Shown piece after piece: positions 12,539 through 53,408 of a stretch of DNA of 64,000 nucleotides. Source of the stretch: Hydractinia symbiolongicarpus (Eukaryota > Cnidaria > Hydrozoa > Anthoathecata > Hydractiniidae); the NCBI RefSeq assembly GCF_029227915.1, contig NC_079888.1:14431001-14495000 (forward strand), read 5' to 3'. The notes beneath the pieces are model-generated. The model had not been told where the DNA came from. It did no database searches and saw nothing but the letters and a program-made list of their open reading frames with translations. The position numbers were made by a program, and so were the translations under genes. How positions within the stretch are numbered: position 1 is the stretch's first letter; each line of letters begins with the position of its first letter.

Positions 12539-12862
12539 AAAGAAAGTTTAAGCAACGAGTACAAGAACATATGCGCGCAGTGAGAAACGGAGATGTGAAG
12601 AAAAACGAAATTGCGGACCACAGCTGGAGCAGAAGTCATCAGTTTAATTGGGAAGAGAAGAAAATCATTGACAGAGAATCCAGAACAACGGCCAGGAAGA
12701 TTAAAGAAACCATCAACAGTGTAGAACGTAACAAACACATAAACAGCATCTCGTATCAACTTCCTGAGATTTGGTTACCAGCCCTACAGAAGAAGTAGTT
12801 ACCTACATCCAGGTCCGAAAATGTTAATTACCGTAATTAACTGTAATTATCAGCTCGTTTCT
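12471..12862 (+). pseudogene. Inverted, truncated endonuclease copy (Penelope-like)
   Basis: This is the reverse complement of about 10046-10441. It reads YIGETKRKFKQRVQEH and the rest of the endonuclease to the same stop, with only scattered differences. It begins abruptly inside the endonuclease domain, as expected for a 5'-truncated insertion. It keeps about 32 bases near 12864-12895 that are missing from the left copy. Confidence 0.8.
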
Positions 12863-24975: not shown

Positions 24976-25070
24976 GCGTATACTTAATGTATACATTTCA
25001 AACACAGGATCCACATTGATAACAGTGTTTCCAACGCTGGAGTGGCTATATCCTGTATCAGTATTCGAAA

Positions 25071-25200
<130 letters not shown>

Positions 25201-25471
25201 CGTAGGAGATTATTTTTGTTCCGCTGCAGCATTCGTTTGTATTACTTAGCAGAACATGGCTAACAGGCAACTGCGAAGTGAAGTTTTGAAACGCGGCCTG
25301 AAGGCATGCATCGTCCAACCGGTAATAAGAAAATATCAGGTAGTAGCCGTCCGTGCGATGTGGGGAAGTGATGTTGGTGCCCGCGAGGTCATTTGGGGCA
25401 AGAGAATGCAGATGGAGAACATATTGCTTAGCAACGAACAAGTATCCTGTTTTTTTTCTTGTATTACCTAT

Positions 25472-28400
25472 ATGGCCAGACCTCGTAAGAGAAAGTCGAT
25501 GAGGAATGAAGGGGAGGAAGAAGAAGGAGCCGACTCTAGCAGTGAAGGTGATAACAGAAACGGCGCAAATGCGCCTGAAACATTTCCTGGCATTTCTTTC
25601 TGGATCGCGTGCGACTTGCCAAACTGTACATTAAGTCAATTTGAAACAAATTTGTCGAAGTCTTTTATGCAAGCCGGATTGAATTTAACAACGTGCAATG
25701 CTATACAGACAAGAGGTAAATACTTGAACCTTTTAGTACTTGAAATACTGTCAATGTTCTTCAAATATTTTACGCCACATTTGATATTTGTAGGCAAAAC
25801 CAGTGCATTGCAAGCATTCTCAGGATCGTTATACCAAGTCTAGAAAGACCACAATAGGGAAGAAGCAAAACGGATAGTTAATATATCCCATCGCACAATG
25901 ATTAGGAGTGCAGCTAGAGTTGAAGGTGTTCAGCTTGACCACGTTGCTGTTATGGAAAGCGAACAGTACTCGATGAAACCCTGTCAGCTAATTCTAACAA
26001 AAAATATTGATAAAGAGGTATATCAAGATGTAATTCGTGGTTTATCCGAAATCAGATTTACATCGCTTGATTTAAAAGTAATTGATAAATCGGAAGGTAA
26101 GTTGGCACGAACAAATTTACTTACTTTCTCCAATAATAAGACTAAGTTTTTTGTAGAAGTTAAAACATGTTTTTACATTGTTACTCGCATAGGCACAGAA
26201 GTAACTATTCCCGTTAAGCCAACTAACAAACTTTGTCAATCTGTGGATATAGTGCGAAGGATGATGGAGAGGAATAGCTTTGGACTGTGCAATGGAGGTG
26301 TATATGAAAAAATAGGAGAAAGCAGATACACATACGTTTACTGTTGTTCGGTGAAAAGCTATCTCTATCGCTCGTTGAAAAACAAAGCAATCGCCAACGA
26401 AATTACGCCAAATTTACGAGAGTTGGTATTTATGCTGTCGGACGGCGAGTGTCAAATAATTGATCAAATAACTCTGGATTACAATTACATTGAATGCTTG
26501 CCAAATGGAGTTTGTTATAACATCGCCAAAAAATGTTTCGATGTCAAGCCAAATTTAAAGGGATCTCCCCGAGCATTCGTACGGTACTTTCATCGTGAGG
26601 GAAAAAATCCCGAACCAAAGCCATTTATAGAAGGTAATTGTTTTTACTTTTCTTTTAACGCGTTGTAACGTATCAAGGTGGTAGTTGTAACGTGTTGTAA
26701 CGTATTGTAACTTGTTGTAACGCATTGTCAGTGAAGAAAATGTGTTTTTTTTCTTTTAACGCGTTGTAACATATCGAGGTGGTAGTTGTAACGTGTTGTA
26801 ACGTATTGTAACTTGTTGTAACGCATTGTCAATAAAAAAATGTTGGCTCTTTTTCTTTTAACGCGTTGTAACATATCGAGGTGGTAGTTGTAACGTGTTG
26901 TAACGTATTGTAACTTGTTGTAACGCAGTGTCAGTGAAGAAAATGTGTGTTTTTTTAACGCGTTGTAACATATCGAGGTGGTAGTTGTAACATGTTGTAA
27001 CGTATTATAACTTGTTGTAACGCATTGTCAGTGAAGAAAATGTTTTGTTTTTTTATCTTTTAACGCGTTGTAACATATCAAGGTGGTAGTTGTAACGTGT
27101 TGTAACGTATTGTAACTTGTTGTAACGCATTGTCAGTGAATAAAAATGTTGGCTCTTTTTCTTTTAACGCGTTGTTATATATCAAGGTGGTAGTTGTAAC
27201 GTGATGTAACGTATTGTAACTTGTTGTAACGCATTGTCAGTGAAGAAAATGTTTTGTTTTTTTATCTTTTAACGCGTTGTAACATATCAAGGTGGTAGTT
27301 GTAACGTGTTGTAACGTATTGTAACTTGTTGTAACGCATTGTCAGTGAATAAAAATGTTGGGTCTTTTTCTTTTAACGCGTTGTAACATATCAAGGTGGT
27401 AGTTGTAACGTGATGTAACGTATTGTAACTTGTTGTAACGCATTGTCAGTGAAGAAAATGTTTTGTTTTTTTATCTTTTAACGCGTTGTAGTATATCAAG
27501 GTGGTAGTTGTAACGTGTTGTAACGTATTGTAACTTGTTGTAACGCATTTTCAGTAAAAAAAATGTTGGCTCTTTTTCTTTTAACGCGTTGTAACATATC
27601 GAGGTGGTAGTTGTAACGTGTTGTAACGTATTGTAACTTGTTGTAACGCATTGTCAGTGAATAAAAATGTTGGCTCTTTTTCTTTTAACGCGTTGTAACA
27701 TATCAAGGTGGTAGTTGTAACGTGATGTAACGTATTGTAACTTGTTGTAACGCATTGTCAGTGAAGAAAATGTTTTTTTTTATCTTTTAACGCGTTGTAA
27801 CATATCGAGGTGGTAGTTGTAACGTGTTGTAACGTATTGTAACTTGTTGTAACGTAGTTCTAAAAAAGGTGCACTGAACTACATTTGTAGGTGTCGAAAA
27901 TAGCTTCCCAGATAGAAATGTGCGGTTGCGTTTTTATCAAAAATGGTACCAAATTTTGCTCGCCGGTCAGTATCCCATGAAAGAAAAGAAATTGTTGCTG
28001 GTAGGTCCTCCTGGTAGTGGAAAGACTAGTTGGTTTGCTCCATTTCAAGGTAATTAAATAAAGTTCGTGAAAACTTCTGACTTTTAGACGGCACTTACTG
28101 ACATACATTTGTCCTTTTAGGCATTATTCCAGAAATGTACATTGCTGGCGTGGTTCGGGATGGTCGATTCTCAGGCCACCTGATAAATAGAAATACACAA
28201 GTCGTATTTATGGATGAATGGACTAGCGACAGTCTATGTTGTGAAGATGCAAAAAGAACATTGCAAGGTAAGTCGATGTCGATGCAGTACATAAACATTT
28301 ACTTTGAATAAAATGTGGCAATGTGCAGATGGGATACCACTTTCTCTTATAGGCGGCTTGGTTATGATCCCGCAAAAACACAAAGAACCGGCCCGTTTTC

Positions 28401-29475
28401 AATACAATTCGGGTTTTTTTATAACAACTAATATAATGCCGGACTTCGGAAATGGTGTAGATGGTGAGGCTATCCTGCGTCGTCTTGAAGTTTTCGAAAC
28501 TAAGACACTTCGAGTGAAGGACAATAGCATAACAAGTAAGTATCTCATGAGAATAAATGATAACAATGGTGTAAATCAATATGCATAAAAATAAGTAGTG
28601 ACTTTTGTCCCGTAGAGTGGATGAGAATGCACTGCATGGAAATATTTGTGTACGTTGCCAGCCAGTTGAAAGACATCTCACTTTTCACCAGCGAAACCAA
28701 TGTTGCGAAGAAAAATCAAGTAGGCGCTGTGTACAACGACGTTGATTGTGATCCGTCGGTTTTCTTGGACGAAGAGCAAACATTGGAAGCATCTAGAAGT
28801 GGTCTAAGCACACGAGTTCAGATTGAGAATGCAGTTCCGCAAGAGGCTATCGACTATGCCATTATTGCGGCGATAGGGATGGCATTTTGTACCATGCGCT
28901 TAACTTTGATCATGAACTGTTTGACATAGAAAACAAGTTACACAGTGCTGAATATATGCGCAAAATGTACGAGATAGCCCCTGGGGCATGGGGGGAAATC
29001 TGCCCATTAATTAATAACGATGAGACCTTGGTAGCATTCAAACGCCGTAAAAGGATCAACTGGCATGGGTAGTGACACGTTCTACGACACGTGGTTGCTT
29101 GCTACAAACTCCTGCCGCGATTGATTCCAGACGAAAGAAATGAAGGAGCTCTACCCTGATTGGGCACAACTAATTGAGCAAGACGAAGACGAAGGAGTAG
29201 GTAGTAGCCACGACCGCGAAGAGAACGAGGAAGAAGAAGAGGAAACAAACGAAGAAGGGGAAGGTCATAGCGAAGAAGAAGAAACAGAAGAACATGAAAT
29301 CAATGCTCAGTCGACAAAACTTGTTTCCACTGTTAAGCAAGAATATATGCCGTTTTGTCCAGCAAATAACAGTACTGCTTTTATAGACCTCGAGAGCTAT
29401 TTTCCGCAGATAATTCAACCACTTCTCTCGATTGTGATGTTATCTGCATTAGTTCGGACGAAGAAGACAATTAAA
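25472..29475 (+). CDS. SF3-type (E1/Rep-like) helicase gene, multi-exon
   Basis: Clean phase-1 splicing joins exons 25472-25715, 25794-26633, 27891-28049, 28121-28267 and 28353-28535, and a phase-consistent acceptor adds 28616 onward. The first 350 residues are unassigned, with a basic/acidic N-terminus (MARPRKRK). The helicase core follows: Walker A GPPGSGKT (28003-28026), Walker B VVFMDEW, a motif-C-like FFITTN and an Arg-finger-like RRLEVF. This order fits superfamily 3 helicases of papilloma/parvovirus-like Reps, which unwind DNA at origins. One in-frame TAG lies at 25841, and the region after about 28870 needs a frame change and ends in an acidic tail (29200-29300) and a CDVICISSDEED end. 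The start could also be ATG 25256. Confidence 0.7.
26651..27856 (-). repeat. Iteron-like array I, 12 units, inside a helicase intron
   Basis: Twelve units of about 100-107 bp, each starting TTTTAACGCGTTGTAAC. Read on the minus strand each unit has four GTTACAA heptamers exactly 10 bp apart, a 15-nt spacer (CTACCACCTCGATAT type), and a fifth GTTACAA. Units differ by few substitutions. The array fills almost the whole intron between helicase exons 2 and 3. The one-helical-turn spacing suggests binding sites on one face of the DNA. Confidence 0.9.
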
Positions 29476-29566
29476 AAAAAACTTTTTTGCCTTTTTCTTT
29501 CCTCATATCCCACCACATACTCCTTTTCTAAAGTGACATGCGAAAAGCGGTTTTCTCTACAGAAAT

Positions 29567-30865
29567 AGGTTACAAAGCGTTACAACGTGTTACAAGGCGT
29601 TACAATCAGCATGTCCATGCGTTACCAGGCGTTACAAGAATCACTCTAGCCATTTCCAAAAATTTCACAGTCATTTTTTCATGAAAATAGGTTACAAAGC
29701 GTTACGTGTTACAAGGCGTTACAATCAGCATGTCCATGCGTTACAAGGCGTTACAAGAATCACTCTAGCCATTTCCAAAAATTTCACAGTCATTTTTTCA
29801 TGGAAATAGGTTACAAAGCGTTACAACGTGTTACAAGGCGTTACAATCAGCATGTCCATGCGTTACCAGGCGTTACAAGAATCACTCTATCCATTTCCAA
29901 AAATTTCACAGTCATTTTTTCATGGGAATAGGTTACAAAGCGTTACAACGTGTTACAAGGCGTTACAATCAGCATGTCCATGCGTTACCAGGCGTTACAA
30001 GAATCACTCTAGCCATTTCCAATAATTTCACAGTCATTTTTTCATGGAAATAGGTTACAAAGCGTTACAACGTGTTACAAGGCGTTACAATCAGCATGTC
30101 CATGCGTTACCAGGCGTTACAAGAATCACTCTAGCCATTTCCAATAATTTCACAGTCATTTTTTCATGGAAATAGGTTACAAAGCGTTACAACGTGTTAC
30201 AAGGCGTTACAATCAGCATGTCCATGCGTTTCCAGGCGTTACAAGAATCACTCTAGCCATTTCCAAAAATTTCACAGTCATTTTTTCATGGAAATAGGTT
30301 ACAAAGCGTTACAACGTGTTACCAGGCGTTACAATCAGCATGTCCATGCGTTACAAGGCGTTGCAAGAATCACTCTGGCCATTTCCAAAAATTTCACAGT
30401 CATTTTTTCATGGAAATAGGTTACAAAGCGTTACGTGTTACAAGGCGTTACAATCAGCATGTCCATGCGTTACAAGGCGTTACAAGAATCACTCTAGCCA
30501 TTTCCAAAAATTTCACAGTCATTTTTTCATGGAAATAGGTTACAAAGCGTTACAACGTGTTACAAGGCGTTACAATCAGCATGTCCATGCGTTACCAGGC
30601 GTTACAAGAATCACTCTATCCATTTCCAAAAATTTCACAGTCATTTTTTCATGGGAATAGGTTACAAAGCGTTACAACGTGTTACAAGGCGTTACAATCA
30701 GCATGTCCATGCGTTACAAGGCGTTACAAGAATCACTCCAGCCATTTCCAAAAATTTCACAGTCATTTTTTCATGGAAATAGGTTACAAAGCGTTACAAC
30801 GTGTTACAAGGCGTTACAATCAGCATGTCCATGCGTTACAAGGCGTTACAAGAATCACTTTAGTC
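29567..30865 (+). repeat. Iteron-like array II, 11 units, downstream of the helicase
   Basis: Eleven units of 119-122 bp, starts at about 29568, 29690, 29809, 29931, 30053, 30175, 30298, 30419, 30539, 30660 and 30782. Each has four GTTACAA sites 10 bp apart, a 15-nt spacer (TCAGCATGTCCATGC), two more GTTACAA sites 10 bp apart, and then a T-rich part ending in TTTTTTCATGGAAATAG. Two units lack 3 bp in the second site. The frames running through the array are artefacts of the repeat. Confidence 0.95.
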
Positions 30866-31002
30866 ATTTTAAGTAGGAATGGGGATGAGTGTGCGTTTAA
30901 TGAATGTCGCATTTGCGCCATTATTTGCATACTTAAAGGCTTACAGCGTGTAAGTTTCACCTAAATTGTGTGGACGCTTATGTGTACGTTAAAATGGTGA
31001 AT

Positions 31003-31305
31003 GAAGAGGCAGTTGTGGTAAACGTTTCGGATAACGAATGCTCAGCATCTAAGGAGGTTTTACCGTTCTCACATTCCTGTTCAACGCTGGCAATTTCCGT
31101 GGAAAAAAATATTGTTTGCCTATCAGATGATGAAGTTTTCCTAACTATACCGATAGCGGCTTTGAAGGGAGAACCAAGTTTTTGCGAACCCCCTTATTAT
31201 TGGCCAAATCGTAAGAGGAAAAAAAGCCTTTATGTGTACGCCGGTTTTGACTGTAACAAAGTTAAAAGACTATTTGAATATTCTGGTTTTCAAAAATCTT
31301 TGTAA
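31003..31305 (+). CDS. Small acidic ORF with SIM-like motifs
   Basis: An open frame of about 100 codons from ATG 31003 (an in-frame earlier start exists at 30970). It has two motifs of hydrophobic residues followed by acidic ones, VVVNVSDNE and IVCLSDDE, which resemble SUMO-interacting motifs, and a basic KRKK stretch. It ends 22 bp before the stop of the convergent recombinase gene. The helicase tail has a similar CDVICISSDEED motif. I do not recognise the family; it may be a third gene of the element or a 3' exon of the helicase transcript. Confidence 0.45.
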   Translation, partial: EEAVVVNVSDNECSASKEVLPFSHSCSTLAISVEKNIVCLSDDEVFLTIPIAALKGEPSFCEPPYYWPNRKRKKSLYVYAGFDCNKVKRLFEYSGFQKSL

Positions 31306-31327
31306 ATTTACAAAGTTATTTATTTTA

Positions 31328-32869
31328 TTATAAATACAATTTAAACTTATATAAATTTTTTGTCTTCGCTCTAACCGCCAATGTACTAGCTTTACGGCTA
31401 CAATGAAAGGAGTATTTAGGATCTGCGAGATAGGAAGTCCATTTTGCATTGCCATATTTTTGTAGCCCAGCTTGTAAAAACTTGTCCTCCATGGCACTAA
31501 AACTAACTTTTTTCTGTCTCGTTTGAGCAGGTGTTTCGTGTTCCAAAGTACTTCCAGACGTTTTCACATTTTTGGTGTTACTATTGATTTCGCTTACAGT
31601 TAAAGTACACGTTGTTTGATCTCGTAATTTATCCATACATAACCTGGCTTTTGCAGCCTTCTGGTAATGAACTTTAGCTACCTGCGACGTGTGTTTTTGA
31701 TCTTGAGAAAGAATTGCTTGTTCTTTTGTTTCTAAGTGTGCAACACTTTCGGTTTCGATGATTTGCCTATATCGTGTAGGATTTATATACTTACCAATTG
31801 CTTGATAAACAATTCTACCGAATACGTCCGAAATACGCGTCAACTGCTTACCATTTCGACACACTAGTAGATAATCGTTGGTGGGGTTCAATATTCGTCG
31901 TACATTGTCAATGTATTCGTTTATTAGTGTGAGTACATCTATGGAAAAATAAAGAGAGTCAAATCCGTATTTCTCCGCAGTTTTAAAGACATTCTGATCT
32001 ATAAAACCATCCTCTTTCACGCCTTTAATCATTGTTACTGTAAGAGTTTGATACGTCATGGGTCTTGAAGCCTTCACCATTAAAAATAATACAGCTACTA
32101 TGAAGGAAGTCGAAAATGATAAATCGTGTGCTGCGACACATGCACTTGCGTTTTTAGCATTTAACACAATTTGTTTATATTTTTCACTATGGTATGGTAT
32201 CACCTTTTGTAAATCATATAGTGTCGCCCAACAGTCTATACTGTTTAGATATTCAACACTTAAGATACACTTCCATTCACCTTTCATTTTACGAAGGAGG
32301 AATTTCTTAACACGGTGCAAATAAATCTCTGCAGCAACAAATACCCACAAATTTTTTTCAGTCGTACCTGTGCTTCGTCTGTAATCAAGCATGTGCCCAA
32401 TAGCATTCATGTAGCCAATTATTCCTAAGAAGCCAACCTTCCATTGGTCTCTCAAAAAATCTACGAAATCAGAAAGCATATTAATAGAGCCAACACAGTA
32501 GTCGATAACAGGGAATGGTACTTCCCATACCGAAGGAAAATCCTCGTTACAAGTTATTTGATCGGCCTGAGAATGATCTTTACCACCACCACCTGGACTT
32601 TTTAACCATGTCCTAAATACAACTGCCAAATAACATGTTTTAGCAAAAGACGGCATTGAAAATGTGGAGGCGCGCTTTCTTTGGGGATCTTTTATGCGAT
32701 TTCTCGTACTGAAGTGGGGAAGTACTTCGTCGATATTCGGTCTTTTATCGAAATAATAAAACCATCCATGACGGTTATAGACATGTTTTCTACACCCTCT
32801 TTTACTTCCATACTACTCGCTGTCACAATCAGCCACAGGACAACAAAAGCGGTTATCTTTATCAGGCAT
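31328..32869 (-). CDS. Crypton-type tyrosine recombinase with zinc finger and Myb/SANT domain
   Basis: The frame from ATG 32869 is open except for one TAG at 32813-32815; from ATG 32656 it is fully open for 442 codons. The N-terminal part before that ATG has Cys/His residues (FCCPVADCD, then CRKHVYNRH) like a C2H2 finger. The recombinase core, in 442-residue numbering, has Arg198 (ASRPMTYQ), Lys225, Arg295/297 (NPTRYRQ), His322 (DQKHTS) and the probable nucleophile Tyr331 (VAKVHYQK). A Myb/SANT-like domain follows (FSAMEDKFLQAGLQKYGNAKW, shortened here to its core Trp end). The enzyme would integrate or excise a circular intermediate. It resembles animal Crypton recombinases. Confidence 0.75.
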
Positions 32870-33590
32870 TAACTTAAGCCTTTTCGATCTCATTGAGGCT
32901 CCCAATGCCTCTTTTCACGCAGGCTTTTGCAAGACTCGTTTTGTCATTCCGATTTCTTTAAAGTTCTCTAGAAACAAAATTTATAGAAAGTTTATAACAA
33001 TATTAGTTTTTAACAAAGCATAGAAAGTAGGATAAAAAAAAGAATTCATTTGAATAAAAAAAGAATCCTATTTACTATAAATTTAAAGTTTGGACAACTT
33101 ACCTTATACTTTACTTCGTATACAAAGTATTAGTTGAGAAACTTCTCATTAAAACAATTCCTTTTTATAATGAAGGACGCTCTCCATAGCAAAGTTAAGG
33201 TAGCAGCGAAAACGGAATTATTTCAAGTGGCACAATATAAATTAGACTGCAGAGTATTCACAATTAAATAACTATTCCTCAAGATAATCATTTCGCATAT
33301 ATTATCGTTATGATATATAAAAGAATTCAACGGAACAAATAGAGTGGAACGATATATACCGTCACATAAATTCCATCAAATTCCCTATGGGAACGACACG
33401 TTTTTGTCTTGTGAGTAACAATAGAACAATACATTCCGCTTTTATAACAATGTTTTAATAAGTTGTTAAAGAACACCAAGTTCCTTAAAAATGGTTCTTT
33501 TTTAAAAAATTGGAACACGTAAAGTATTTAATGTGTTTAGGGTGTAAGATAATCGCACATAGAATCACGGACCATTATAATTTCATACGC

Positions 33591-33625
<35 letters not shown>

Positions 33626-34938: not shown

Positions 34939-35204
34939 AGAGATAGAGAAATGTATGTTCTGGCACAACGCACATCTTGCACACGCGCACGCACATCATC
35001 ACAAGTACTTAGGCGAATACCCACAGTCAAACCCAATAAATCAGCGTCATGCTGTGTTTATCCATACATAGTCCTTATAATGCTATGTTTATTTATACCA
35101 TCAAATCAATGAGGCAAATGAGTAAAAAATGTCTAGCGCGCAGTAAATTCCCCTACCCGCACACTGCTGACGTCAATTAACGCATGCGGAGTAAAGATGT
35201 GAAC
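34939..35204 (+). repeat. Polinton left terminal inverted repeat
   Basis: 266 bp matching the reverse complement of 50111-50368 with few substitutions and small indels, ending in GTAAAGATGTGAAC. It contains an ACACGCGCACGCAC stretch that is a few bases longer than in the right copy. Confidence 0.9.
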
Positions 35205-35242
35205 ATCTACGTCAGCAAACATGAAATTCACGGACAATTTAA

Positions 35243-38200
35243 TTGTACAACTGGTTAGTGGACGCAGTTCCCAAACCTATAAAAAAGCGAGTTAAGAGAA
35301 CATATGCAGCATTCAAGCGCAAGGTGATGAATCGCTATGATAGTGCGACTAACATAATCGCGAAATCTACGCTTCATAATGAAGTGGAAAAACAGGCCAA
35401 AGAAGACTATCTAGAAGATATTCAAAATCTCTATCAGCCGGGGCAAGCTTTTACACCTGAGGAAGGCACGCGTTGCATAAGACTTTTCGAAGTTTTGGCA
35501 TTCCTGGTGTAGGAGGAGCCGGCGTCGATGGTTATATAACAATGGTGCGACCCAATCTGAAAACCTTGATCAAGGACCAGGTTGGGGAAATGGGATCAGG
35601 AAAGGTACAGATGTCCCTATGGATCAAGTGGAAGAAGAATATACTATCAAACTCAGAGGAGGCTAACGATGAATACATTGAGGTGAAGAAGGCCTTTAAC
35701 ATAAGATGACAAGAATTTTCCAAGGTAACGACGTAGACGACGTGCTGGATAGGATGTTTGCTGATATCAAGACACACGTGGAACATCCAACAACAGGATC
35801 AAATTTCAACACTGGCCCGTGGACATTACCGCCGGTAGACACCCGAAAATAAAAACCATGGAAGTGTGTCTACTAATCTCTATACTTATACCTTATGCCC
35901 TAATGGCGTTTTGTTTTTTACGATATCGTCGTAAAATGAAGAGAATGTCAGAGCTTGCACAAGTATTCGACACAGCCTCAGAAAATTTTGAAACCACCAA
36001 CGGATAAACGCCAAGCCTGGAAGGATGACCTGCATAATGGATAGCCTCGAAAAAGGCCATCATCAACCCAAAAAATGAGGATGAAGCATGTTTTAAATGG
36101 GGCGTCATAGCATCCCTACATCATATTAAAAAAGACATGCAAAGAATCTCTAAGCTGAGGCCCTATGTAGATCTCTACAATTTAGAGGGTATAGGGTTCC
36201 CGACAACCCTCAATGACATATCCAAGTTTAAGCGGAATAGACCGGACATTGCGGTGAACGTGTTATATATAGCAGATAAGAGTATCAACATCCTTCGACA
36301 ATCCGAGCACAATATTAAGAGTAGCAAGCAAGTGAACCCATTGCTTATCACAGATGGTAAAAAGTCCCACTACACAGCTGTCAAGAGTCTATCGCGACTA
36401 TTGGGAAAGAGACATCGAAGAACACAAAATCAATGTATTTTTGTCTGAACTGCCTGCAGGCATTCAACACAGTTAAATCGAGAGACAAGCATTATGGATA
36501 CTGCAAGTATCATGAGGTTGTTAAAATTACAATGCCAAGAGAGTCTGAAAAATGGTTACAATAATATGGAAAGTCAGATGCAGTTTAGGGTACCTTTTGC
36601 TGTATATGCAGATTTTGAGAGCTTACTTGTCCCGGTAAATAATGTAAGGCGGAAAAAGACGAAAAAACTGAGCAAGCATGTACCATCTGATTGGTGTACC
36701 TATAGTACATTAGCAAACGGCTCCATACCAGATCCCTTAACAGTCTACTGGGGTAAGGATTGTGTCACGCGATTCGCGAACCATCTGGAGGATGAGGTGA
36801 AGAGGTTATATAGGGCATTCCCGCAAGAGCCAATGTTAAAAATAACAGAGGTGTTAAAAGGGGAACATAACGAGGCCACAGAATGTCATATATGTTTGAA
36901 ACCGTTTAAGGACTGCGTGAGTAACCGTAAAGTTCGGGATCACTGTCACTATGCGGGGCTGTATAGAGCCGCAGCGCAAAACAGCTGTAACCTTATTTAC
37001 AAGATACCTAATCATATACCCATCATCTTCCACAACCTAAGCGGCTACGATGCGCATCTCTTCATCCGAGAATTGGGATAGAAATACGACACCCAGGACA
37101 TTGGTTGCATAGCAGAGAATACTGAAAAATATATCAGCTTTAATGTTTGCGTCAAGGTACCGATCGCAGTTCTGCGCCATGGTGACGGAGAAATATTTAA
37201 GAAGATAGAAATTAGGTTCATCGACAGCTGTAGATTAACGCAATCAAGCCTAGACAAATTAGCAAGCAAATCACTGACGAACAATGCAAAAATCTCCGCT
37301 TGTTTTTCCACAAGGATGATACATTTCAACTCATGCATAGAAAGGGTGTTTATCCGTACGAGTACGTGGGTTATTGGCAACGATTCGAAATGTTGGAGCT
37401 ACCACCTAGGAATGCCTTTTACAGCAAGCTGAACATGAATGAGGTTAGTGATGATGAATATGAACATGAAAAATAAGTATGGAATTTAATCACCCTGCAG
37501 GATGATGTAGTCGCCATGGGGGACTACCACGATGTGTATCTTAAGACAGACGCTCTACATTTTGAAACGTATGTTTGACAAACTACAAGCTTGATCCTGC
37601 CCATTTCTACTCCACACCTGGTTTGGCATGGAAAGCAACACTCAAGTACACTGGAATTAGGTTAGAGCTCCTGACCCCAACATGCTATTAATGTTCGAGC
37701 AAGGTACCAGGGGAGGTATAACCCAGGCGGTACACAGGTATGCGAGAGCTAACAATAAGTAAATAGGAGACGAGTATAACCCGGATGTTGAGACATCATA
37801 CCTACAGTACCTTGACGCGAACAACCTGCACGGATGGGCAATGTGTCAAGACCTACCAACGGAGTGTTTTAAGTGGATCTCAAACGTTGATGAATTTACT
37901 GAAAAGCAAAAAGTGAAACTCGTTAAGGTCAATAAACATGGGTATATTTTAGAGTTAGATATCGACTATCTTGAAAGGTTGCATGACAAACATAATGAGT
38001 TACCATTTTTTCCCGAACGCATGACGATCAATAAAGTCGAGAAACTGGTATCTAATTTGAAAAACAAGCGTGGGTACGTGGTGCACATTAAAGTCCTCCA
38101 CGAAGCCATAAAGCAGTCTGAAGTTGAAGAAAGTACATAGAGTCATTCAATGCAATCAAAAGCGATTGCTTAAAGGGTACATCGATCACAACAGGAGGCT

Positions 38201-38993
38201 GAGGACTGCTGCTAAAAATGAGGTCAAGAAAGGTTTTTACAAACTCATAAACCTCTCGGTCTTTGGCAAGACGATGCAGAATATCCGGAACCAACGGAAT
38301 TTCAAACTCGTCACTAACGAGAACGTATATATAAAGCTTGTCATGAAGTCCAACTTTAAGTGTGGAAGCCGATTTAGTAAACACCTCCTAGGTGTAGAGA
38401 TGAGTAAGACGCAGATCAAGATAAACAAACCGGTGTATATAGGTCAGGCAATCCTGGATTTGTCAGAAATTGTGATGTACAAGCTTCACTATGACTATAT
38501 GCAGCCCAAATATGGTAGCAAGCTGCAGCTCTGCTACATGGATACTGAGTCGTTTATATACCATATTGCACAAGATGTCGAGACACCTTTCGATACAAGC
38601 GCCTACAACAAGGACGGTAATAGACCTCTTCACATTGGGAAGAACAAAAGAGCGTTGGCTTGATGAAGGAAGAACTAGCAGGAAAAATCATCACTGAGTT
38701 CATAACGTTGAAAGCAAAATTATATGCTTACGAGAGCCTTACAAAAGAGGGCGGTGACAGGAAAGCGAAGGGTGTGAAAAAGTGCGTTACCAAGAAGTCA
38801 ATCACTTTTGACGACCATAGGCGATATTGGAAGAGGGTGTTAACATTTACAAAAGTCAGGTATTGATTCAAAAAAAGAACCCTAAATACATACCCAAGAG
38901 GTGCACAAATTAGCGCTGAACAGAGCAGATGATAAAAGGCTCGTACAACAGGATCAAATTTCAACGCTGGCCCGTGGACATTACCGCCGGTAA
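35243..38993 (+). pseudogene. polB: Protein-primed family B DNA polymerase (Polinton)
   Basis: This gene copied the element from a protein primer. Fragments in order: an N-terminal region (VRPNLKTLIKDQVGEMGSGK), a region with NPKNEDEACFKWGVIASL and HYTAVKSLSRLL, exonuclease motif Exo I (YADFES near 36610), a zinc/HNH-like CHICLKPF..DHCHYAG block, NLSGYDAHLFI, polymerase motif A (YLDANNLHGWAM near 37810), motif B (FGKTMQNIRNQRNF near 38260), motif C (YMDTES near 38540) and the end STLARGHYRR. At least six frame changes or stops break it, and a 250-bp foreign segment sits in the N-terminal part (35790-36040). Motif C reads MDTES instead of the usual TDTDS. Confidence 0.85.
35790..36040 (+). repeat. 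Duplicated segment inserted in the polymerase gene
   Basis: About 250 bp nearly identical to 38946-39198, the native junction between the polymerase end and the next gene. It carries the polymerase C-terminus (CTGGCCCGTGGACATTACCG) and the start of the membrane-protein gene. The duplicate keeps an open MEVCLLISILIPYALMAF start that is frameshifted by a small deletion in the native copy, so it preserves an older state. Confidence 0.8.
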
Positions 38994-39012
38994 ACACCCG
39001 AGAATAAAAACC

Positions 39013-39619
39013 ATGGAAGTGTGTCTATTAAAATCTATACTTATACCTTATGCCCGTTTTTTTTTTACGATATCGTCGTAAAATGAAGAGAATGTCAGAG
39101 CTTGCACAAGTATTCGACACAGCCTCAGAAAATTTTAAACATGTCGAAAAACCAACGGATAAACGCCAAGCCTTAAAGGATGCCCTGCATAGGGCTAAGG
39201 AACATCTCCTACCGAAAAAATGTACAGAAGGCTTTATCAACAAGGCCCCTGATGAGGCGGTAGAAAAGGTACAGGACAAGTACGTGCAACGGGAACTACA
39301 TGAGAAGGGGGAGATGACGGCCAAGCTGTTGAATACTCACGTGGTAAGCCTATACGCAAATTTGATTGGAAATGTCGTGGATATCGACAATGTCGATGAT
39401 TTACGTAGGGAAATTGAAGAGGACCCTATTATCCAAGACGCTATGACAGACCTGGGGATTCTCATGTACTGCACCATTGGTAGATGTCTAGCTCCAATTT
39501 TAGTGACAGGGAATACCGCGAGACACATGTCCAAAAAGAGGAGGAGGCGGAGGAGAAGGGAAAGATCGTCAATGGTCAGGGCCTACATTGAAATTTCTTA
39601 TAAGCCATATGGCTTATAA
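39013..39619 (+). pseudogene. Polinton membrane-anchored protein of unknown function
   Basis: The start MEVCLLKSILIPYA would give an N-terminal transmembrane helix, as shown intact in the 35857 duplicate. A deletion in the native copy then shifts the frame, after which it reads RRKMKRMSELAQVFDTASEN and continues for about 180 residues with charged helices and a basic RRRRRRRERS stretch. It directly follows the polymerase. Function not recognised. Confidence 0.55.
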
Positions 39620-39624
39620 GATAA

Positions 39625-39973
39625 ATGAGTGAAGAACAGAAACAAGAAGATAGAGTCATTACAAAGCTAGTAAATCTTCCGTGGCGTGCGGCCCAAGGAC
39701 ACAAGTTGGCAGCACTGATGAAGAAAAGAAAGGAAGAAATGAAACAACAATAGGGTACTGTAGAACCTACAGTCAAAACCTCTTCTTGAACCAGTTCTGG
39801 ACAATGTCTACCCATATGGTGTAGATACGCTAGCTGTGCTTGCGATAGGGGTCGGCGTCTGGTACTAATTTGGTAGAGGCAAAGATGATGGAGAATCTCA
39901 CAAGCCCGTGACTCATCCCGAGCCTCAACAGGGCAAAGCCCAACGTCGGATTAACATTTTCCGAATGCACTAA
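39625..39973 (+). pseudogene. Small Polinton protein with one membrane segment
   Basis: Starts MSEEQKQEDRVITKLVNLPW and reaches a TAG at 39751. After a one-base shift the text continues as VLDNVYPYGVDTLAVLAIG with a hydrophobic segment, a second stop (TAA at about 39867), and a hydrophilic tail ending RRINIFRMH. The parts look like one short membrane protein broken by a shift and stops. Function unknown. Confidence 0.45.
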
Positions 39974-40064
39974 TTTTTTTTTCAAAAGATGGTATTAAAC
40001 AAATGACTACAAGTAAAGCTCACATGGATAGCAACGTAACCCCAAAGAGAAGAAAATTTTGGAT

Positions 40065-40274
40065 ATGTTGTACGCGACTGTCGTAGGTTTATCTTTCACA
40101 TTTGGCTATGCCCTAGCAGGTAAGAAATTCTTGGGTATTACAAGGCCATCTACCAAGATGGATATAAGCGATGTTCTCAAGATGGTGGCCTATTTTGCTG
40201 TAGGAAGAGCGAGTCGTGAAATGACTGTGAAAAAGGGGTGGATCCCCGCGAGTATCATGCCGAAACCTAAATGA
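40065..40274 (+). CDS. Small Polinton membrane protein
   Basis: An intact frame of about 69 codons: MLYATVVGLSFTFGYALAG, a hydrophobic N-terminal segment, then PSTKMDISDVLKMVAYFAVG, a second moderately hydrophobic segment, and a basic tail ending SIMPKPK. It is one of the few unbroken genes of the element. No function is known to me; the size and two hydrophobic stretches suggest a membrane or capsid-associated role. Confidence 0.5.
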   Translation: MLYATVVGLSFTFGYALAGKKFLGITRPSTKMDISDVLKMVAYFAVGRASREMTVKKGWIPASIMPKPK

Positions 40275-40321
40275 GCGTCTAGTAAATGTTCTGTTTGTGG
40301 TATAGACAAATAGAAATCAAC

Positions 40322-40771
40322 ATGAAGGAGGCTAACAAATGTTCAAAATTTAAAATTTTTTTATCTATGGACAATTTCAAGATTAAGGGTAATGGTCAAA
40401 CCAGAAAAAGTGTATCAAATGCTTCGCTGCTAACAAGGCGTCAAAGGAGCGCACAAGGTGCCCGCATCAAAGGCAAAGATACCAGTACAAGGATTGTAAG
40501 TGAAGTAATCTCGCTTGCGTTGTAAGCAGCCGACCCCGCAAGGCTCTACATGAAAACAAGGCGGTCGTAGTTACGCTGCGGGTCATATTGAAGCACAATT
40601 CATGGAAGGGATGACCTGGGAAAGTTACGAGTGGTTGCATATTCATCACAAGGTGCCACTTAAGTATGAAAAAAATGGCAATGCTCCAACGCTTGCTGAG
40701 GTTGCTAGTAGATTACACTAACACTCAACCCATTTGGGCGAGTCGCGGGTTTGTAAAAATAAAGGGATCTA
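40322..40771 (+). pseudogene. HNH-nuclease-like gene (Polinton accessory)
   Basis: Begins MKEANKCSKFKIFLSMDNFK, a Cys-containing start, and with a frame change shows KCIKCFAANK and RCPHQRQRYQYKDCK, a Cys/His cluster. Further on, GHIEAQFMEGMTWES, LHIHHKVPLKYE and a LHYTNTQPIWAS end (after another shift) fit an HNH-type endonuclease, with the usual W-H-I-D-H changed to L-H-I-H-H. Stops and shifts show it is dead. Such nucleases occur as cargo in Polintons and large DNA viruses. Confidence 0.5.
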
Positions 40772-40807
40772 GACCCCATCAGAAAATATAGAAAACATAG
40801 AGGATCT

Positions 40808-41156
40808 CATCGGGATGAGAATTATCTACGTTTTTACACCCTGTTCACATACGACATTGTGCCTCGGAACATTGAGCTGTTAAAAACACTGATCAAAATA
40901 CGCTTTTTTAACCTCGCCCCCTGCCTTTTCAGCCAGGAAAAGGGGCGGCTGGTTAAGAGGTACTGCAAAGTACTGCGGTACCTAGATGGCAAGCTATCGT
41001 TTGACCCACTACCTCCCGAATACCACACACGGAGGACCAAGTTCTGCCCTTCCTGTCGGGGGTCTCTTGTTAGTAAGCATGGGGGCGTGTGGATTTGTTC
41101 TACTTGCGCTGCTACGTACCCAAAAGTCCATTCAAAAGAGTGGTCCTACCAACAAA
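40808..41156 (+). pseudogene. Zinc-ribbon protein (Polinton)
   Basis: An open stretch with no ATG in a good place, reading NYLRFYTLFTYDIVPRNIEL, then RYLDGKLSFDPL, then the zinc ribbon FCPSCRGSLVS..GGVWICSTCAA (two CxxC pairs). It directly precedes and probably overlaps the ATPase start. The role is unknown. Confidence 0.45.
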
Positions 41157-41725
41157 TGGTAGATATTGTAAAAGATTTCCATACGTTATGTTTACGGGTC
41201 CGACAAGTTGTGGTAAGACAAAACGTGTTTTGGACCTGCTGGAAAAAGAATACAGACACCACTATCACAACATAGTGATACTATATCCTACACTGCAATG
41301 GAATAAGACATACCTTGAGAGGGCCTCGCTCTGGAGGGACGAGTACGTGTTCCTAGTAGGTCCCAAAGATCAACTCTTCGAATGGATTCAAAAATTATCA
41401 TCATTACTGGCGGGCGAAGACACTCTTTTCGTCACGGACGACGTCATAGCCTTGACAAGCGGCGACAGGCCCTAAATGAGTTAGAGTAGACACCAAGGAT
41501 AGTCTTTGGCTACTCACGCAGTCTTACACTGCTTTACCTAAAAATCTGAGAAGGCAAAAGAAGCAGCTGTTTATGTGGTATCCAAACGAAAGATTGTACA
41601 TGAAAATGATAGAAAAGGAAACCAATCTTATTTCAGAATGGGATGATATCAAGGCTCAGCTGAAAAAATCCAAGCATGCATGCCTCTACGTGAGGTTGTA
41701 ACATCCCCAAAGCTATAAAATCCTT
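41157..41725 (+). pseudogene. FtsK/A32-like DNA packaging ATPase (Polinton)
   Basis: The start MVDIVKDF is followed after a one-base shift by YVMFTGPTSCGKTKRVLDLL, which contains Walker A (GPTSCGKT). Walker B is LFVTDDVIA near 41430. After another shift at about 41475 the sequence continues LWLLTQSYTALPKNLRRQKK, where a Gln-containing sensor motif is expected, then KKSKHACLYVRL. This is the genome-packaging ATPase of Polintons and related viruses. Two shifts and a late stop inactivate it. Confidence 0.75.
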
Positions 41726-41763
41726 GAGTGAAATCTTCTGGCTGAGCATTGGTATATTAGGAA

Positions 41764-42577
41764 TGTCTTCGCAACTTTCTCTCTTTAACACAGTACCTGC
41801 TGGAGCCATCAAAACTCTATTCGATGGACAAAATCAGCCTCTATTCAAACGTGCCGATCTAGGCAGGCTTTTGGGTATTGCTGACATAGCGCGCAATTTT
41901 CAATATTTGGCTGGGGAAAATATAACAAGGCAAGATATTGTAGGAAAAAGTGAAGGGGTGCCACCCTACCCCGATCGGGCATGCTAGGGGGAGGTAAAAA
42001 TCCGCATGATGTCTCTGTCACGTTAGATTGCGCCTTAGGGATTGTTGTCAAATCAAAAAAGCCCAAGGCCGTAGCTTTGACAAAATGGTTGACTATGAAG
42101 AGTATGGAAAAATTACAGGAAACCAATCGTGGAAACCAGAGATATTGCCGTCGCCATCCTCGAGGACGATCTAGCGGATAGGGATAACCAGCTCATGGTA
42201 CTGGGGGATAAGCTCAAGGACAGAGATCGACAACTTTAAGCACAGGCCCAGGAAAATGCAAAGCTTCGGAAAAAAAATGTACCACATGCCCAAGATATAA
42301 GCAAAGACAACGTCATCATAATCCATCGAAAGCACAGTGCACAGACCGACGATGAGTACCATCATCTTCCCTATTACTGCACGCGTGTTCAGAAGCGTAG
42401 CAACAAGACCAAGAGATGGTGGTAGAGATTGTAGTCATCGACAACACCAGCGGCATACACGCCTCTAATCGGTTTGAAGAGGAGGAGCAGGTGGTGCGTT
42501 GCAGAAACCATTTCAGGCTTATCAACCTTACTCGAGATGACCTGTACGATTTGGGTTTTCCGGCACTAGAAGACTAG
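41764..42577 (+). pseudogene. KilA/BRO-domain protein (Polinton)
   Basis: MSSQLSLFNTVPAGAIKTLF and QPLFKRADLGRLLGI fit the BRO/KilA-type N-terminal DNA-binding domain; KSKKPKAVALTKWLTMKSME is its C-terminal helix pair. A coiled-coil-like part (DDLADRDNQLMVLGDKLKDR) and a C-terminal domain ending NHFRLINLTRDDLYDLGF follow. At least three frame changes and a TAA break it. BRO/KilA proteins are frequent DNA-binding cargo of large DNA viruses and Polintons; the target is unknown. Confidence 0.65.
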
Positions 42578-42589
42578 GGAGGCAATAAT

Positions 42590-43285
42590 TTTAATCCTCA
42601 CGAGAGTATTAAAACTATCATTTTTGACCCGTTTGGTTTCATGCTTCCATCTATTCAAATATCAATGGATAAAGGCATACATAAAAACACAACAATTTAC
42701 AAGGGATTCTCAATCTCCAGGTACCTGTGCTACGATGTTGTATCAACGCAGGGTCAGTGACCGTTTATTGCCCAACATACTTAGAAAATTTTAGGTTTCA
42801 AGATGGAATATACTACGAAGGATTTGAACCTCCTACCGGCGAAGATCTTTTTAACAGGGTAGCTTCAGGCGAAAAACCATGGGGGACATTTGCAAGAAAA
42901 AAAAAAGTTGGAGAAGGATATAAAGCGCCTAAGGTTGCATATTGTTCAAAAGGCTAGGAACAACTATGGGACACTCTGTTATCAGGTCATCAAGGATAAG
43001 GACTTGATGCTATCGAATCTGGCTGATATCACAAGAATAAGCGATAAACTAAACTTTAATATAGAAGATAGACGCTTGGATGACATTGACCTGGAACATG
43101 AATCCAATGTCATCAAAGGTATCGTCTATGGGTACCTGTTCTATACACTACATCCTTTAGATTATCTGCGAGATCCGAATGAAGAAGATGAGGATCTAGA
43201 TGACAAGGATGAAGTAGATTTAGATGCCATAGATGAACGCCTGAAGAACTATTACCAAGCCTTAGCATCCTCCGGAGGTACCTGA
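42590..43285 (+). pseudogene. Polinton protein of unknown function
   Basis: Two broken parts: FEPPTGEDLFNRVASGEKPW (42835-42895) and, in another frame, KKKLEKDIKRLRLHIVQKAR to HESNVIKGIVYGYLFYTLHP with an acidic tail. It abuts the opposite-strand integrase remnant, with only a few bases between or overlapping their 3' ends. The family is not named here. Confidence 0.45.
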
Positions 43286-43805
43286 ATTTCTTCAGGTACA
43301 AGCATCAATAATTCTGACACGAAGCTTCTTTCAGGGTCGTCTTTTAAAATGTACAAAACACGACTACCCGCTACGCTACGATCCAGCCTGTACATATGTT
43401 GGCTCCAAAAGTCGTCAGTTGCGCGTCCTTCCGAATCGCCATGCTCCTTTCCTGGTTGTAGCAGATAGATGTACAAACCATCTTCAGGTAATGGCTTCTC
43501 TTCAGGATATTGTTGACTTTTCGCAAGTGGTAGTGAGGCATGTGCAGTAGATCAAACTGATGCATCTCGTTGGGCCTCTTATTAGTGAAGTGGGGATGAT
43601 CGATACGTTTTGGACCCTTGATGTGTCGTAGCCACAACACTTGCCTACTCTGCCAGTGGGTGACTAGCTTTTTGGATAAACCGCTCTTCTTCGCGAGTAA
43701 TCTAATAGCTTTGCGTCCAGTCCAGAGATGTTCTGGCATGTAGTAAGTTTGGTTTAATTTTCCCGCCTCCCCCTCAGTAACACTTTGCGGTGGTGCTTTC
43801 GACAT
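43252..43805 (-). pseudogene. Polinton integrase with deleted catalytic core
   Basis: The N-terminal part reads YYMPEHLWTGRKAIRLLAKK, SKKLVTHWQSRQVLW and KRIDHPHFTNKRPNEMHQFD, the His-containing and core-entry region of retrovirus-like Polinton integrases, including the first acidic residue (QFDLL). Soon after, the frame changes and the sequence joins DFWSQHMYRLDRS and RSFVSELLMLVPEEIQVPP, the C-terminal domain. The part with the second and third catalytic acidic residues (DDE) is missing, so the enzyme is dead by an internal deletion. Confidence 0.75.
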
Positions 43806-43830
43806 GTTTATTATACATGTTAAAAACATT

Positions 43831-44229
43831 CTACAAATACTTGTATGCTAAAAATCCTAGCAGAGACAATGAGCCAACGATAAAAGTAAGCTCGCCATCT
43901 TTTTGCTGAGGGGAAGGCGTATAGTAATCTGACAATTTCGGGAAATTATCATTCGAGGCGATGTAGTATTTGTACATGTCATCGTCCAGCTCCCGAAGGC
44001 TCTTTCCGGCCCGTAGTTGTAATTGCCGGTGCCTGTTGAACCATTCAATTTTTGCTTGTCTGTCCCGGACCCACTGTGCCTGGGCAAGTTGGAGCTTCTC
44101 TATGGCTTCATCATGCTTTCTCCGCTCTGCCTCGCCGTGTCCTGAGAGTTTGCTAAATAGGAAGTTCGTGCCACTGAAGGCCAGAGTGTTAATCGCGGCA
44201 CCTGCAACAAGAACAGCGATAGTTGCCAT
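43831..44229 (-). CDS. Conserved Polinton virion-type protein
   Basis: An intact frame of 132 codons. It begins with a hydrophobic segment (MATIAVLVAGAAINTLAFSG), continues with a charged helical middle (EAERRKHDEAIEKLQLAQAQ), and ends with DYYTPSPQQKDGELTFIVG and a second hydrophobic helix. This pattern with two end membrane segments occurs in many Polintons next to the capsid gene. The biochemical role is unknown; a capsid-associated membrane protein is a guess. Confidence 0.6.
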   Translation of the reverse strand: MATIAVLVAGAAINTLAFSGTNFLFSKLSGHGEAERRKHDEAIEKLQLAQAQWVRDRQAKIEWFNRHRQLQLRAGKSLRELDDDMYKYYIASNDNFPKLSDYYTPSPQQKDGELTFIVGSLSLLGFLAYKYL

Positions 44230-44231
44230 TT

Positions 44232-45330
44232 ATTTCGGCCCTCGGCCGAATGATAACGGCCGTCTAGGATGTTCAGTTGGATATACTGAAGCAAGTACAC
44301 ATAGCACCTGAAATACCCGGTGCTGTCGGCTTTCGTTGTCATATGGAGGGTAATGCCGTCACTCAGACGTTGTAGGATTCTCAAACTAACATGTAGGGTA
44401 TGATCAGGAGAAGCTCGGAAATCGATAAAAAGCGCATATCTCTCGTTGAAGAATTGCCCAATCGTCACATTCGAGTCGTGACTCCCAAAAGGGTGCTCGA
44501 GGTGGTCCTAAGGAAGGTTACACGAAGAGTAAAGGACGCCTTTCAAACTCTTCTCAGGCGTGCCAATTTGTAAATTGTATCTGGTATAAGCCTTTTTCAT
44601 TGTGACTACTTTGCTACGGAGTATCCTTTCATAGGGTAGTGCCAGTCTTGCATACCTTGACATCACGGCACTTGCGAGACCTTAATGAGTGACTTTGTCG
44701 AATTCTAGCTTGATGTTGGTAATTTTATATGTGGCATCGGCCAACTTTGCCGCCGTGCTCCCGTACAACACGAAATGTAGAACAAACTGTAGCCTGTCAT
44801 GAAGCCCTGCCTGGTAAAACGGCAGGTCTCTCGTCAGCTTAAACATCTTGCCCAACGGGATACAGAAAGCGTTAAAATAGGCCGCAGCGATGACCTTCTC
44901 CTCATCCGTCCCGACATACTCAGTAGCCTTGACCTGCAAGGCCCTTATAGTACCATTATTGGGTTGATCTCCTCCAAAATTAGGTTATTGTCCCTGTCGA
45001 TGTTTTGGTAGCCATAGGTCTCGGTAGACCGCCAGGGTGTTGAAATCGCTTAAATTCTATACTTTGTTACCGTTCAGGGTAATACGTAAATATCGCGCCA
45101 GTCTTTTGCCTATGTTGCTAACTAGGGTACGTTTCGTATTGTTCCCCGTTAGTACCAGGTCAAATAAGAGTTTGATACTTCCAGGAAATATGACATCGTT
45201 CTGCAACATGTTGAAAATATCCACGTACAGGTCTTCATTTTGATTAATCGTAGATGGTATGTTACTTATCTGAACACGTTGCTTTCTCCCCTTAATACCG
45301 AATAGCTGTTCGTCTCTGCGTAAGGGTTCA
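44232..45330 (-). pseudogene. Probable Polinton major capsid protein
   Basis: Pieces in order on the minus strand: GRKQRVQISNIPSTINQNED, VSNIGKRLARYLRITLNGNK, TIRALQVKATEYVGTDEEK, PFYQAGLHDRLQFVLHFVLY, ITNIKLEFDKVTH, YERILRSKVVTMKKAYTRYN, and, after an apparent internal deletion, NERYALFIDFRASPD and LLQYIQLNILDGRY. Length (at least 350 residues), beta-rich character and position fit the double jelly-roll capsid protein of Polintons. The region between the SLKGVL and GQFFNERY segments is shorter than expected. Several stops interrupt it, and no ATG is present at the 5' end. Confidence 0.6.
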
Positions 45331-45375
45331 ATGTAGTTTCAAATGAATTTATTCAATATAGGTAAATTTAAATAA

Positions 45376-46420
45376 ATGGCGGATAATCCGTTATTTACGA
45401 ATGAAGATGATTTAGAGGATAAGGGTGGGACAGATGATAAAGATGAATATCATCAATCAACGTCAAAACTCCCTTCAACGCCGGGGCGTTCAAAGTAAAA
45501 AAAACAACAGCAGGGAGAACAAGGAGACATCACGACTACGGGCATGGGGATAATGTTATAAGGAAAGGTTAACGATCTTTACGATCAGCTTATTAAGGGT
45601 TTGAAGCTGACGCCATCCGCAAGACATTATGATAATTTCAGATTGGGGAAAAGCAATCAACTTTTTATCAAAAAAATAGTGTTTGGGAATAAAATTTTAA
45701 ATGAAAAATTGCTTACGAATCAAGATGGCACATTAAAAGCCACTAACTCTCTAGAAAAGGTCTTAAGTAATTATCGTCTGCAAGCCCTAGATTTTACCGA
45801 TTATGCTACACCTAACAAAGGTAACAAAGAAATGGTCCAGGAACTTTCGCCAGAGGCTGATGTCATTGTTAAGAATGGTGAAACGAAGGGTGAGAATACC
45901 ATTTCGATGGATTCGTTAGATGATATCGACGAATTTGTAGATGATACAGATAACCTTATACAAGACACTTTGTTCTGAGGGCCTGATGATGTCATCAGCG
46001 AGGGCGTTAGAAGAGGAATCAACCGGGAAGTACAGACTATAAAGGGCGCTGTAAGGTTACTGAAAGGTAAGATGATTCTATGCAATAGCGATATTGACAG
46101 GGCAAAAGCCAGGATGAAACAACTCGAGGATCAGAAAGATGGGGCATACGATGGTGAGATTTCTAACCTTGATAAAAAAATAATACTGTACTCGCAGTTA
46201 CAGGGGAAGTGCCGCAACAGGTGCAAGAGGAAATACCGAATTGTGTGCGGAAGGCTTTGGAGAAAAGCAGTTTGAAAGGCTTGGAAAATTCCTCAAAGAT
46301 CTAGCAAGTGAAGCAGGTGCTGACTTATCCGGGATTATTGGTACCATAGTCTCATTCTTTCTGAGGGTAGCGGCAACTATTGTCGAATATGCAGCGAAAC
46401 AATCTGTATGGCCATCATAG
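45376..46420 (+). pseudogene. Polinton protein with C-terminal membrane segment
   Basis: Starts MADNPLFTNEDDLEDKG, with an acidic low-complexity N-terminus, continues with SARHYDNFRLGKSNQLFIKK and the open 45601-45978 part, then a coiled-coil-like DIDRAKARMKQLEDQKDG, and after a shift FERLGKFLKDLASEAGADLS with a hydrophobic end (GTIVSFFLRVAATIVEY). Stops at 45500, 45556 and 45976 and at least one shift break it. It may be a minor virion protein. Function unknown. Confidence 0.5.
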
Positions 46421-46476
46421 CCTCATGCTTTTGTCGTGACCGACGTTGGAGGGAGGAAAACAGCTTGATCTACTAT

Positions 46477-47229: not shown

Positions 47230-47338
47230 GGGAATATGTGATTCTGTGGAGACATATAGGCCCTGATTCTCCCATTTTTGATTTGAACTTTGCCTTGGGG
47301 TTGTACGAATACATGTTTATCCTTTCTTAGAAGAAAGG

Positions 47339-53388: not shown

Positions 53389-53408
53389 GCGTCTTTTTCA
53401 TCTTTTAG

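Follow-up and report, generated by a model that had tools for sequence, protein, structure and literature searches.

An 8.4-kb mobile element of Hydractinia pairing a tyrosine recombinase with a viral-type helicase: a probable Crypton-like transposon copying as a circle

Introduction

The stretch of DNA analyzed here (hereafter the window) comprises 64,000 nucleotides of contig C14 of the hydroid Hydractinia symbiolongicarpus. It contains an 8.4-kb unit that carries, on opposite strands, a tyrosine recombinase gene and a spliced gene for a superfamily 3 (SF3) helicase, and this unit recurs whole at many places in the genome. The element is probably an autonomous, Crypton-like DNA transposon that copies itself as a circle with the aid of its helicase. 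The movement of tyrosine-recombinase transposons is believed to involve a circle. Here, the recombinase is accompanied by a viral-type helicase and candidate replication origins, and the hydroid carries recent copies that are nearly identical. The existence of the circle, its replication, and its stacking on copies already in place are thereby directly testable in Hydractinia, with a bearing on how the circles of tyrosine-recombinase transposons gain copies, as well as on the exchange of replication modules between transposons and small DNA viruses.

A single unit dispersed through the genome

Searches covered the 480.9-Mb H. symbiolongicarpus assembly, a single genome, and the resulting counts are lower bounds. 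The recombinase query, which started downstream of the window copy's own stop codon, returned 54 matches. Twenty-two of them span the full length and were analyzed copy by copy (18 of the 22 have no internal stop); the remaining 32 are older fragments. Queries with the two ends of the element gave 30 matches each: 24 left ends are full length at 98-100% identity, and 24 right ends are complete or almost so, with 23 of them at 96% or more. A left end in matching orientation is paired with every one of the 22 full-length recombinase copies, as well as with a partial copy on C12, and lies 4.5-7.0 kb past the 3' end of the recombinase. When the search was made from the helicase side with a Clytia protein (P0002), 97 exon matches were obtained. 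The best-found exon, exon 3, is present at 25 places, and all of them have a recombinase match except that at C3:18.45 Mb. This genome-wide pairing rules out a chance neighborhood of the two genes and supports the original prediction that they belong to one mobile element; separate elements with independent flanks were not found in this genome. The predicted span, 25472..32869, does include both genes but falls short on both sides, since helicase coding starts at about 25256, the recombinase at 32947, and the element ends at 25200 and 33597.

The copies are very young. Over 1506 recombinase bases, 17 copies differ from one another at 3.3 positions on average and at 8 at most, and 8 of the 136 pairs are identical. 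The copy in the window differs from one of these 17 at 15 of 1461 bases and has decayed, with an in-frame stop in each gene and frame disruptions in the 3' part of the helicase. In a second copy, all six helicase exon stretches examined are open. The copy at C6:20.36 Mb is shortened. The closest protein matches of both genes come from H. symbiolongicarpus and Clytia, which indicates a cnidarian host.

Two further observations concern other members of the group. In the copy at C2:18274800-18279750, roughly 2.3 kb of inserted DNA interrupts the right-end region, accompanied by a duplication of about 5 bases. Sequences related to the right end but diverged from it (69-70%) are present at C1:8.83, 8.95 and 11.1 Mb, two of the three with recombinase scraps (67%) about 12 kb away; these perhaps represent an older related family.

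Ends, target sites, and tandem copies

On the right, the copies cease to resemble one another within an (AAT)n microsatellite; on the left, the similarity starts past an AAT-type tract. Sixteen of 17 right ends (16 fetched and that of the window) adjoin (AAT)n, and all 18 fetched left ends, together with that of the window, are preceded by AAT-type repeats, imperfect ones in the C6 copy. At 16 loci, the left end reads ATATAACC in seven cases, AATAATAACC in eight, and AATCATAACC in one, and the right end reads CGCTATATAA in 15 cases and CGCTATAATAA in one. The 6-bp core ATATAA is thus found at the right end in 15 of the 16 loci and at the left end in seven, the other nine having target-like letters there; seven loci have the core at both ends. 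Judged from the sequence, this pattern may have been left by a staggered strand exchange across a brief overlap where the sequences of element and target are not the same. Inverted repeats are absent from the ends, as judged by eye.

A host repeat that has (AAT)n at its edge is common to the flanks of three copies (L031, L034, L036). This repeat (L034:905-1455) is abundant, with 641 first-look candidates, of which 40 were scored, and at least three copies of the element have inserted at it. All six unoccupied repeat copies that were fetched carry an AAT-type tract without the element, one of them with AAC units. Because their other flanks differ, they are unoccupied sites of a like kind rather than empty alleles. 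The expectation that further copies would combine both genes with conserved ends, both arrays, and an empty-site allele was borne out in this genome for the genes and ends, and for the arrays in a copy on C15, but instead of the allele only these six sites were obtained.

Three head-to-tail arrays, with four units on C4, two on C9, and two on C10, provide five junctions. In each of the five, the gap between the right-end and left-end matches is 4 bp, and no microsatellite lies between the units. Four junctions read CGCTATATAACCATAGG, and the fifth has one substitution. This sequence is the expected product of joining the two ends of the element. Over about 2.3 kb, the second unit on C9 shows 3 differences from a copy on C5, with 7 common minority variants, against 14 differences from its own neighbor, with none in common. 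It is therefore closer to the C5 copy than to the unit beside it, and it integrated next to a resident copy of another lineage.

The helicase and recombinase genes

The predicted spliced helicase gene on the plus strand was recovered with its motifs: Walker A (GPPGSGKTSW), Walker B (VVFMDEW), a motif-C-like FFITTN, and, by eye, an arginine-finger-like segment. A protein database search with 7998 scored candidates gave 27 relatives at E<=1e-3, and the motifs are kept in relatives. The features of an SF3 helicase, namely Walker A, Walker B, motif C, and the fold, are all present, the fold being taken from a model of a relative's protein rather than that of the window copy. This model resembles Rep of adeno-associated virus (AAV), parvovirus NS1, poxvirus D5, and papillomavirus E1 (VIA-align). 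The comparison with SF3 profiles was only partly favorable: six of ten relatives match Pfam PPV_E1_C, at 17.6-25.4 bits and so below the curated cut-off of 26.5, and the window helicase piece has no match. Membership in the papillomavirus E1 family is not supported, as none of the ten relatives scanned reaches this cut-off.

We infer that the N-terminal part of the helicase is origin-binding-like. An HUH nickase in this part is unlikely: the motif is absent by eye, and the AAV2 Rep68 row extends over model residues 44-584 only at a root-mean-square deviation of 20.6. Ahead of CAGAACATGG, before the helicase ATG, a stretch ending in ACTTAG (25239-25255) resembles a splice acceptor and, from its sequence, could be a spliced-leader site; spliced-leader trans-splicing occurs in hydrozoans.

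The minus-strand recombinase also agrees with the original prediction of a protein with R-K-R-H-Y residues, a zinc finger, and a Myb domain. In the window copy, its uninterrupted reading frame extends over 31331-32812. The catalytic residues R304, K331, R401, H428, and Y437 are invariant in all 31 aligned relatives; the H of the HxxR motif is N in 21 of them (the window copy included), H in eight, and T in two. The ligands of the C2H2 finger are retained in 29-30 of the 31, and 28 show a Myb match at E<=1 in their C-terminal part. The model of the protein has the core-binding and catalytic domain folds of a tyrosine recombinase and resembles Xer and Cre, and its Myb domain superimposes on the DNA-binding domain of human TRF1 at 1.3 Å over 51 residues, with 35% identity. 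Neither DUF3504 nor an integrase catalytic domain is among the Pfam matches listed for the recombinase members (25 of 28 families).

Motif arrays and the small reading frame

The two tandem-repeat arrays of the element (Table 1) are built from different units. Nevertheless, both contain the heptamer GTTACAA, in strictly opposite orientation and without exception. Ten base pairs is the spacing in 59 of 108 pairs of neighboring heptamers, and only one heptamer occurs in the other 5821 bp of the element. The copy on C15, with 48 and 58 heptamers in its arrays, follows the identical orientation rule. The distance from the left end to the recombinase varies between copies (5863, 5681, 5783, and 5987 in the C4 units), which is ascribed to differences in array length. 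Such oriented iterons would suit either a replication initiator or a tether.

The second of these options, in which the arrays would act in maintenance or silencing instead of as an origin, is possible but tentative, and it is compatible with the other readings considered here. The TRF-like Myb domain would bind GTTACAA as a tether or a sink. The predicted likeness of this domain to that of human TRF1 agrees with such a role, as do the placement of the arrays inside the element rather than at its ends and the GTTA that the motif has in common with telomeric repeats. However, the binding by the Myb domain is putative, the helicase would be left without a loading site, and the arrays may also function as origins.

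The small open reading frame expected between the two genes is present and has no Pfam match. The C4 unit used for comparison lacks the interval that corresponds to 30870-31111 of the window, in which this frame starts, and at that border the letters are identical in all four C4 units (C4:15230614-15263087). Consequently, the small reading frame may be dispensable for whatever made the C4 array.

Table 1. Coordinates of the element and its parts in the window.
Feature	Position	Strand	Remarks
Whole element	25200..33597		8.4 kb, counted with one 6-bp core (33592-33597); ends from comparison with 16 right and 18 left ends of other copies
Left-flanking (AAT)n microsatellite, insertion target	25069..25199		Tandem Repeats Finder row, 43.7 copies
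Helicase exon 1, N-terminal part	25256..25715	+	Start per NCBI gene model P0001; 56 bp from left end of element
Helicase exon 2	25794..26096	+	Border from P0001 and alignment; in-frame TAG at 25841-25843 in window copy
Helicase exon 3	26193..26633	+	
Array 1, 104-bp units	26648..27854		11.7 copies; inside helicase intron; 54 TTGTAAC and 0 GTTACAA on + strand
Helicase exon with Walker A	27891..28049	+	
Helicase exon with Walker B	28121..28267	+	
Helicase exon with motif-C-like TTN and arginine-finger-like segment (latter by eye)	28353..28535	+	Acceptor picked to fit relatives
Helicase 3' exon	28616..29476	+	End approximate; frame disruptions in window copy
Array 2, 122-bp units	29562..30869		10.8 copies; between the genes; 56 GTTACAA and 0 TTGTAAC on + strand
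Small open reading frame	30994..31302	+	About 103 amino acids; between helicase and recombinase
Tyrosine recombinase (C2H2 finger, recombinase domains, TRF-like Myb domain)	31331..32947	-	In-frame TAG just above 32812 in window copy
Non-coding stretch upstream of recombinase	32948..33591		In circle or tandem, upstream of helicase too
Right-flanking (AAT)n microsatellite	33598..33624		Tandem Repeats Finder row 33594-33624; similarity between copies ends there

Other features of the window

A second element, of higher G+C content, occupies about 35000-49400. By eye, its open reading frames resemble a protein-primed DNA polymerase, a retrovirus-type integrase, and a Maverick/adintovirus-type ATPase; a Pfam scan of seven pieces gave only weak endonuclease VII and zinc-ribbon matches. 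On the minus strand, 10116-12547 is a Penelope-like retroelement by its domains, a reverse transcriptase (PF00078, just below the cut-off) followed by GIY-YIG (PF01541). Two copies of a likely membrane-protein gene lie at 2140-3335 and 57976-59211 on the minus strand (see also 53357-53773 on the plus strand), with very similar tyrosine-containing tails by eye. We take these genes to resemble Hydractinia allorecognition-type proteins.

Discussion

In the mechanism considered most probable, the recombinase would recombine the two ends of the element at the 6-bp core (ATATAA) and so release it as a circle. The helicase would bind the motif arrays and start replication of the circle with host polymerases, raising the copy number before re-integration. 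The junction of the circle would later recombine either with an (AAT)n tract or with one end of a copy already in place, the latter giving rise to tandem arrays. What the sequences show is the make-up of the element, its spread as a unit, its target, the joining of its ends, and accretion; the circle and its array-based replication by the helicase, as well as a promoter formed at the junction, are inferred. In circular form, the two divergent start codons would lie about 700 bp apart (the 646 bp upstream of the recombinase and about 60 more). In single insertions, the microsatellite alone lies directly upstream of the helicase side. Closure would put the 646-bp region, with a TATATAA at a distance of 56 bp, in front of the helicase start. 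Because closure supplies both, the helicase may be expressed mainly from circles, from tandems, or from some insertions.

A more ambitious version of this scheme describes the element as an integrating episome of an animal, comparable to bacterial integrative elements. It would have its own replication initiator and a TATA promoter made by the circle, its two opposed iteron arrays would fire replication, and it would re-enter (AAT)n or stack on residents. This version as a whole is plausible, yet the balance is slightly against it.

Several observations weigh against replication as a circle or against the element as a fixed unit. Tandem copies alone are no proof of circles, because their junction is identical to the one expected of a circle. 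The arrays on C4 and C10 may be concatemers or local duplications, given that their units are near-identical (1-4 differing sites among the C4 units and one in the C10 pair). The helicase need not depend on a circle for its expression, because the seven insertions of the ATATAA type keep the TATATAA at their left end. Helicase-side sequence without a recombinase match occurs at two places, C3:18450081 (a left end and a helicase exon, with no recombinase match nearby) and C10:12344621 (a left-end remnant). The C6 copy has no microsatellite on its right side, and no empty allele of an element locus was found in this genome. Finally, the protein database contains 899 matches of the recombinase against 27 of the helicase, so that many recombinase relatives may lack a helicase; the low helicase number is also attributable to the introns that split this gene and hamper its detection by gene callers.

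The last of these points, together with the near-identical neighbors on C4 and C10, would also suit an ordinary Crypton, which moves by excision and re-integration only. The helicase would then have another role, such as remodelling the recombining complex, there would be no episomal replication, and the copy number would rise through excision in the S phase of the host and unequal crossing-over in tandems. Cryptons are indeed described, in the accessible part of the source, as moving by their recombinase through a proposed circle (PMC3212892). This explanation is nevertheless unlikely, since the helicase-side end accompanies every full-length recombinase copy in the genome, the relatives retain the helicase motifs, and the strictly oriented arrays would fit an origin.

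Very improbable is a reduced endogenous virus, that is, a DNA virus of circular genome and SF3 replicase that gained a tyrosine recombinase and whose capsid genes were lost or lie elsewhere: the modeled helicase folds do resemble viral ones, both kinds of enzyme occur among polinton-like viruses (not shown together in one genome in the consulted part of PMC12220804), and nimaviruses with a C2H2-bearing recombinase insert into repeats (PMC10871703, in part), but the many young copies are all of one compact unit whose ends are precise, the Pfam scan of five protein pieces of the element gave no capsid family, and no relative appeared in scans of viral contigs with the recombinase and helicase alignments.

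Comparison with known systems

The helicase has the SF3 fold and motifs in common with papillomavirus E1, parvovirus NS1, and AAV Rep, and no capsid gene was seen in the element. An E1-like SF3 replicase is also present in cnidarian data, namely the Rep of cressviruses, some of them apparently endogenized in sea anemones (preprint PMC11071296, available portion). The sea-anemone case is described there with a capsid gene, and its likeness to the element is one of description only; the preprint also mentions a tyrosine recombinase once. Polinton-like viruses, according to the portion of PMC12220804 at hand, include some with a tyrosine recombinase and others with an SF3 helicase fused to a polymerase, and circularization before integration has been inferred for them. 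Unlike the element, they are virus-like elements of 14-40 kb in protists. Endogenous nimaviruses of crustaceans are similar in their C2H2-bearing tyrosine recombinase, in their insertion into simple repeats, and in the concatemers or episomes suggested for them. They differ in their large virus genomes, their telomere-type (TAACC)n target, and their other genes; this comparison again rests on the description, as given in part of PMC10871703.

The closest parallels are the Cryptons. A circle has been proposed for these recombinase transposons, and the groups found in fungi and oomycetes end in direct repeats of 4-6 bp, according to the available text of PMC3212892. CryptonA, F, I, and S resemble the element in their tyrosine recombinase and proposed circle, and those of fungi and oomycetes also in their short terminal direct repeats. 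The element likewise shows traits by which the Crypton order is recognized: a tyrosine recombinase that would act as the integrase, short direct repeats bounding the element, and, by eye, no long terminal inverted repeats. The same text names GCR1_C and C48 peptidase as extra domains and makes no mention of a helicase in the part available. Animal Cryptons are said there to be without terminal repeats and a C-terminal domain, whereas the element has a 6-bp core and a Myb domain (PMC3212892).

The original prediction, which knew of no described animal element with exactly this set of features but allowed that one might exist, is weakened by CryptonV. The combined set itself, a tyrosine recombinase and an SF3 helicase in one animal transposon, was not found among the literature matches listed, a search that covered sources other than Repbase Reports and most subscription papers. 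Likewise, the gene content of CryptonV was not found in the accessible parts of PMC5718144, PMC4455052, PMC5753468, and PMC6431247. Going by the title of the report (Kapitonov and Jurka, Repbase Reports 2012), CryptonV consists of cnidarian Cryptons with target-site specificity, and microsatellites are the insertion site for some of its families, according to the available part of PMC8869645. The likeness to the element consists in the cnidarian host, the target-site specificity, and the insertion into microsatellites, compared by description rather than by sequence or gene content. If CryptonV carries an SF3 helicase, the element would simply be a new family of CryptonV.

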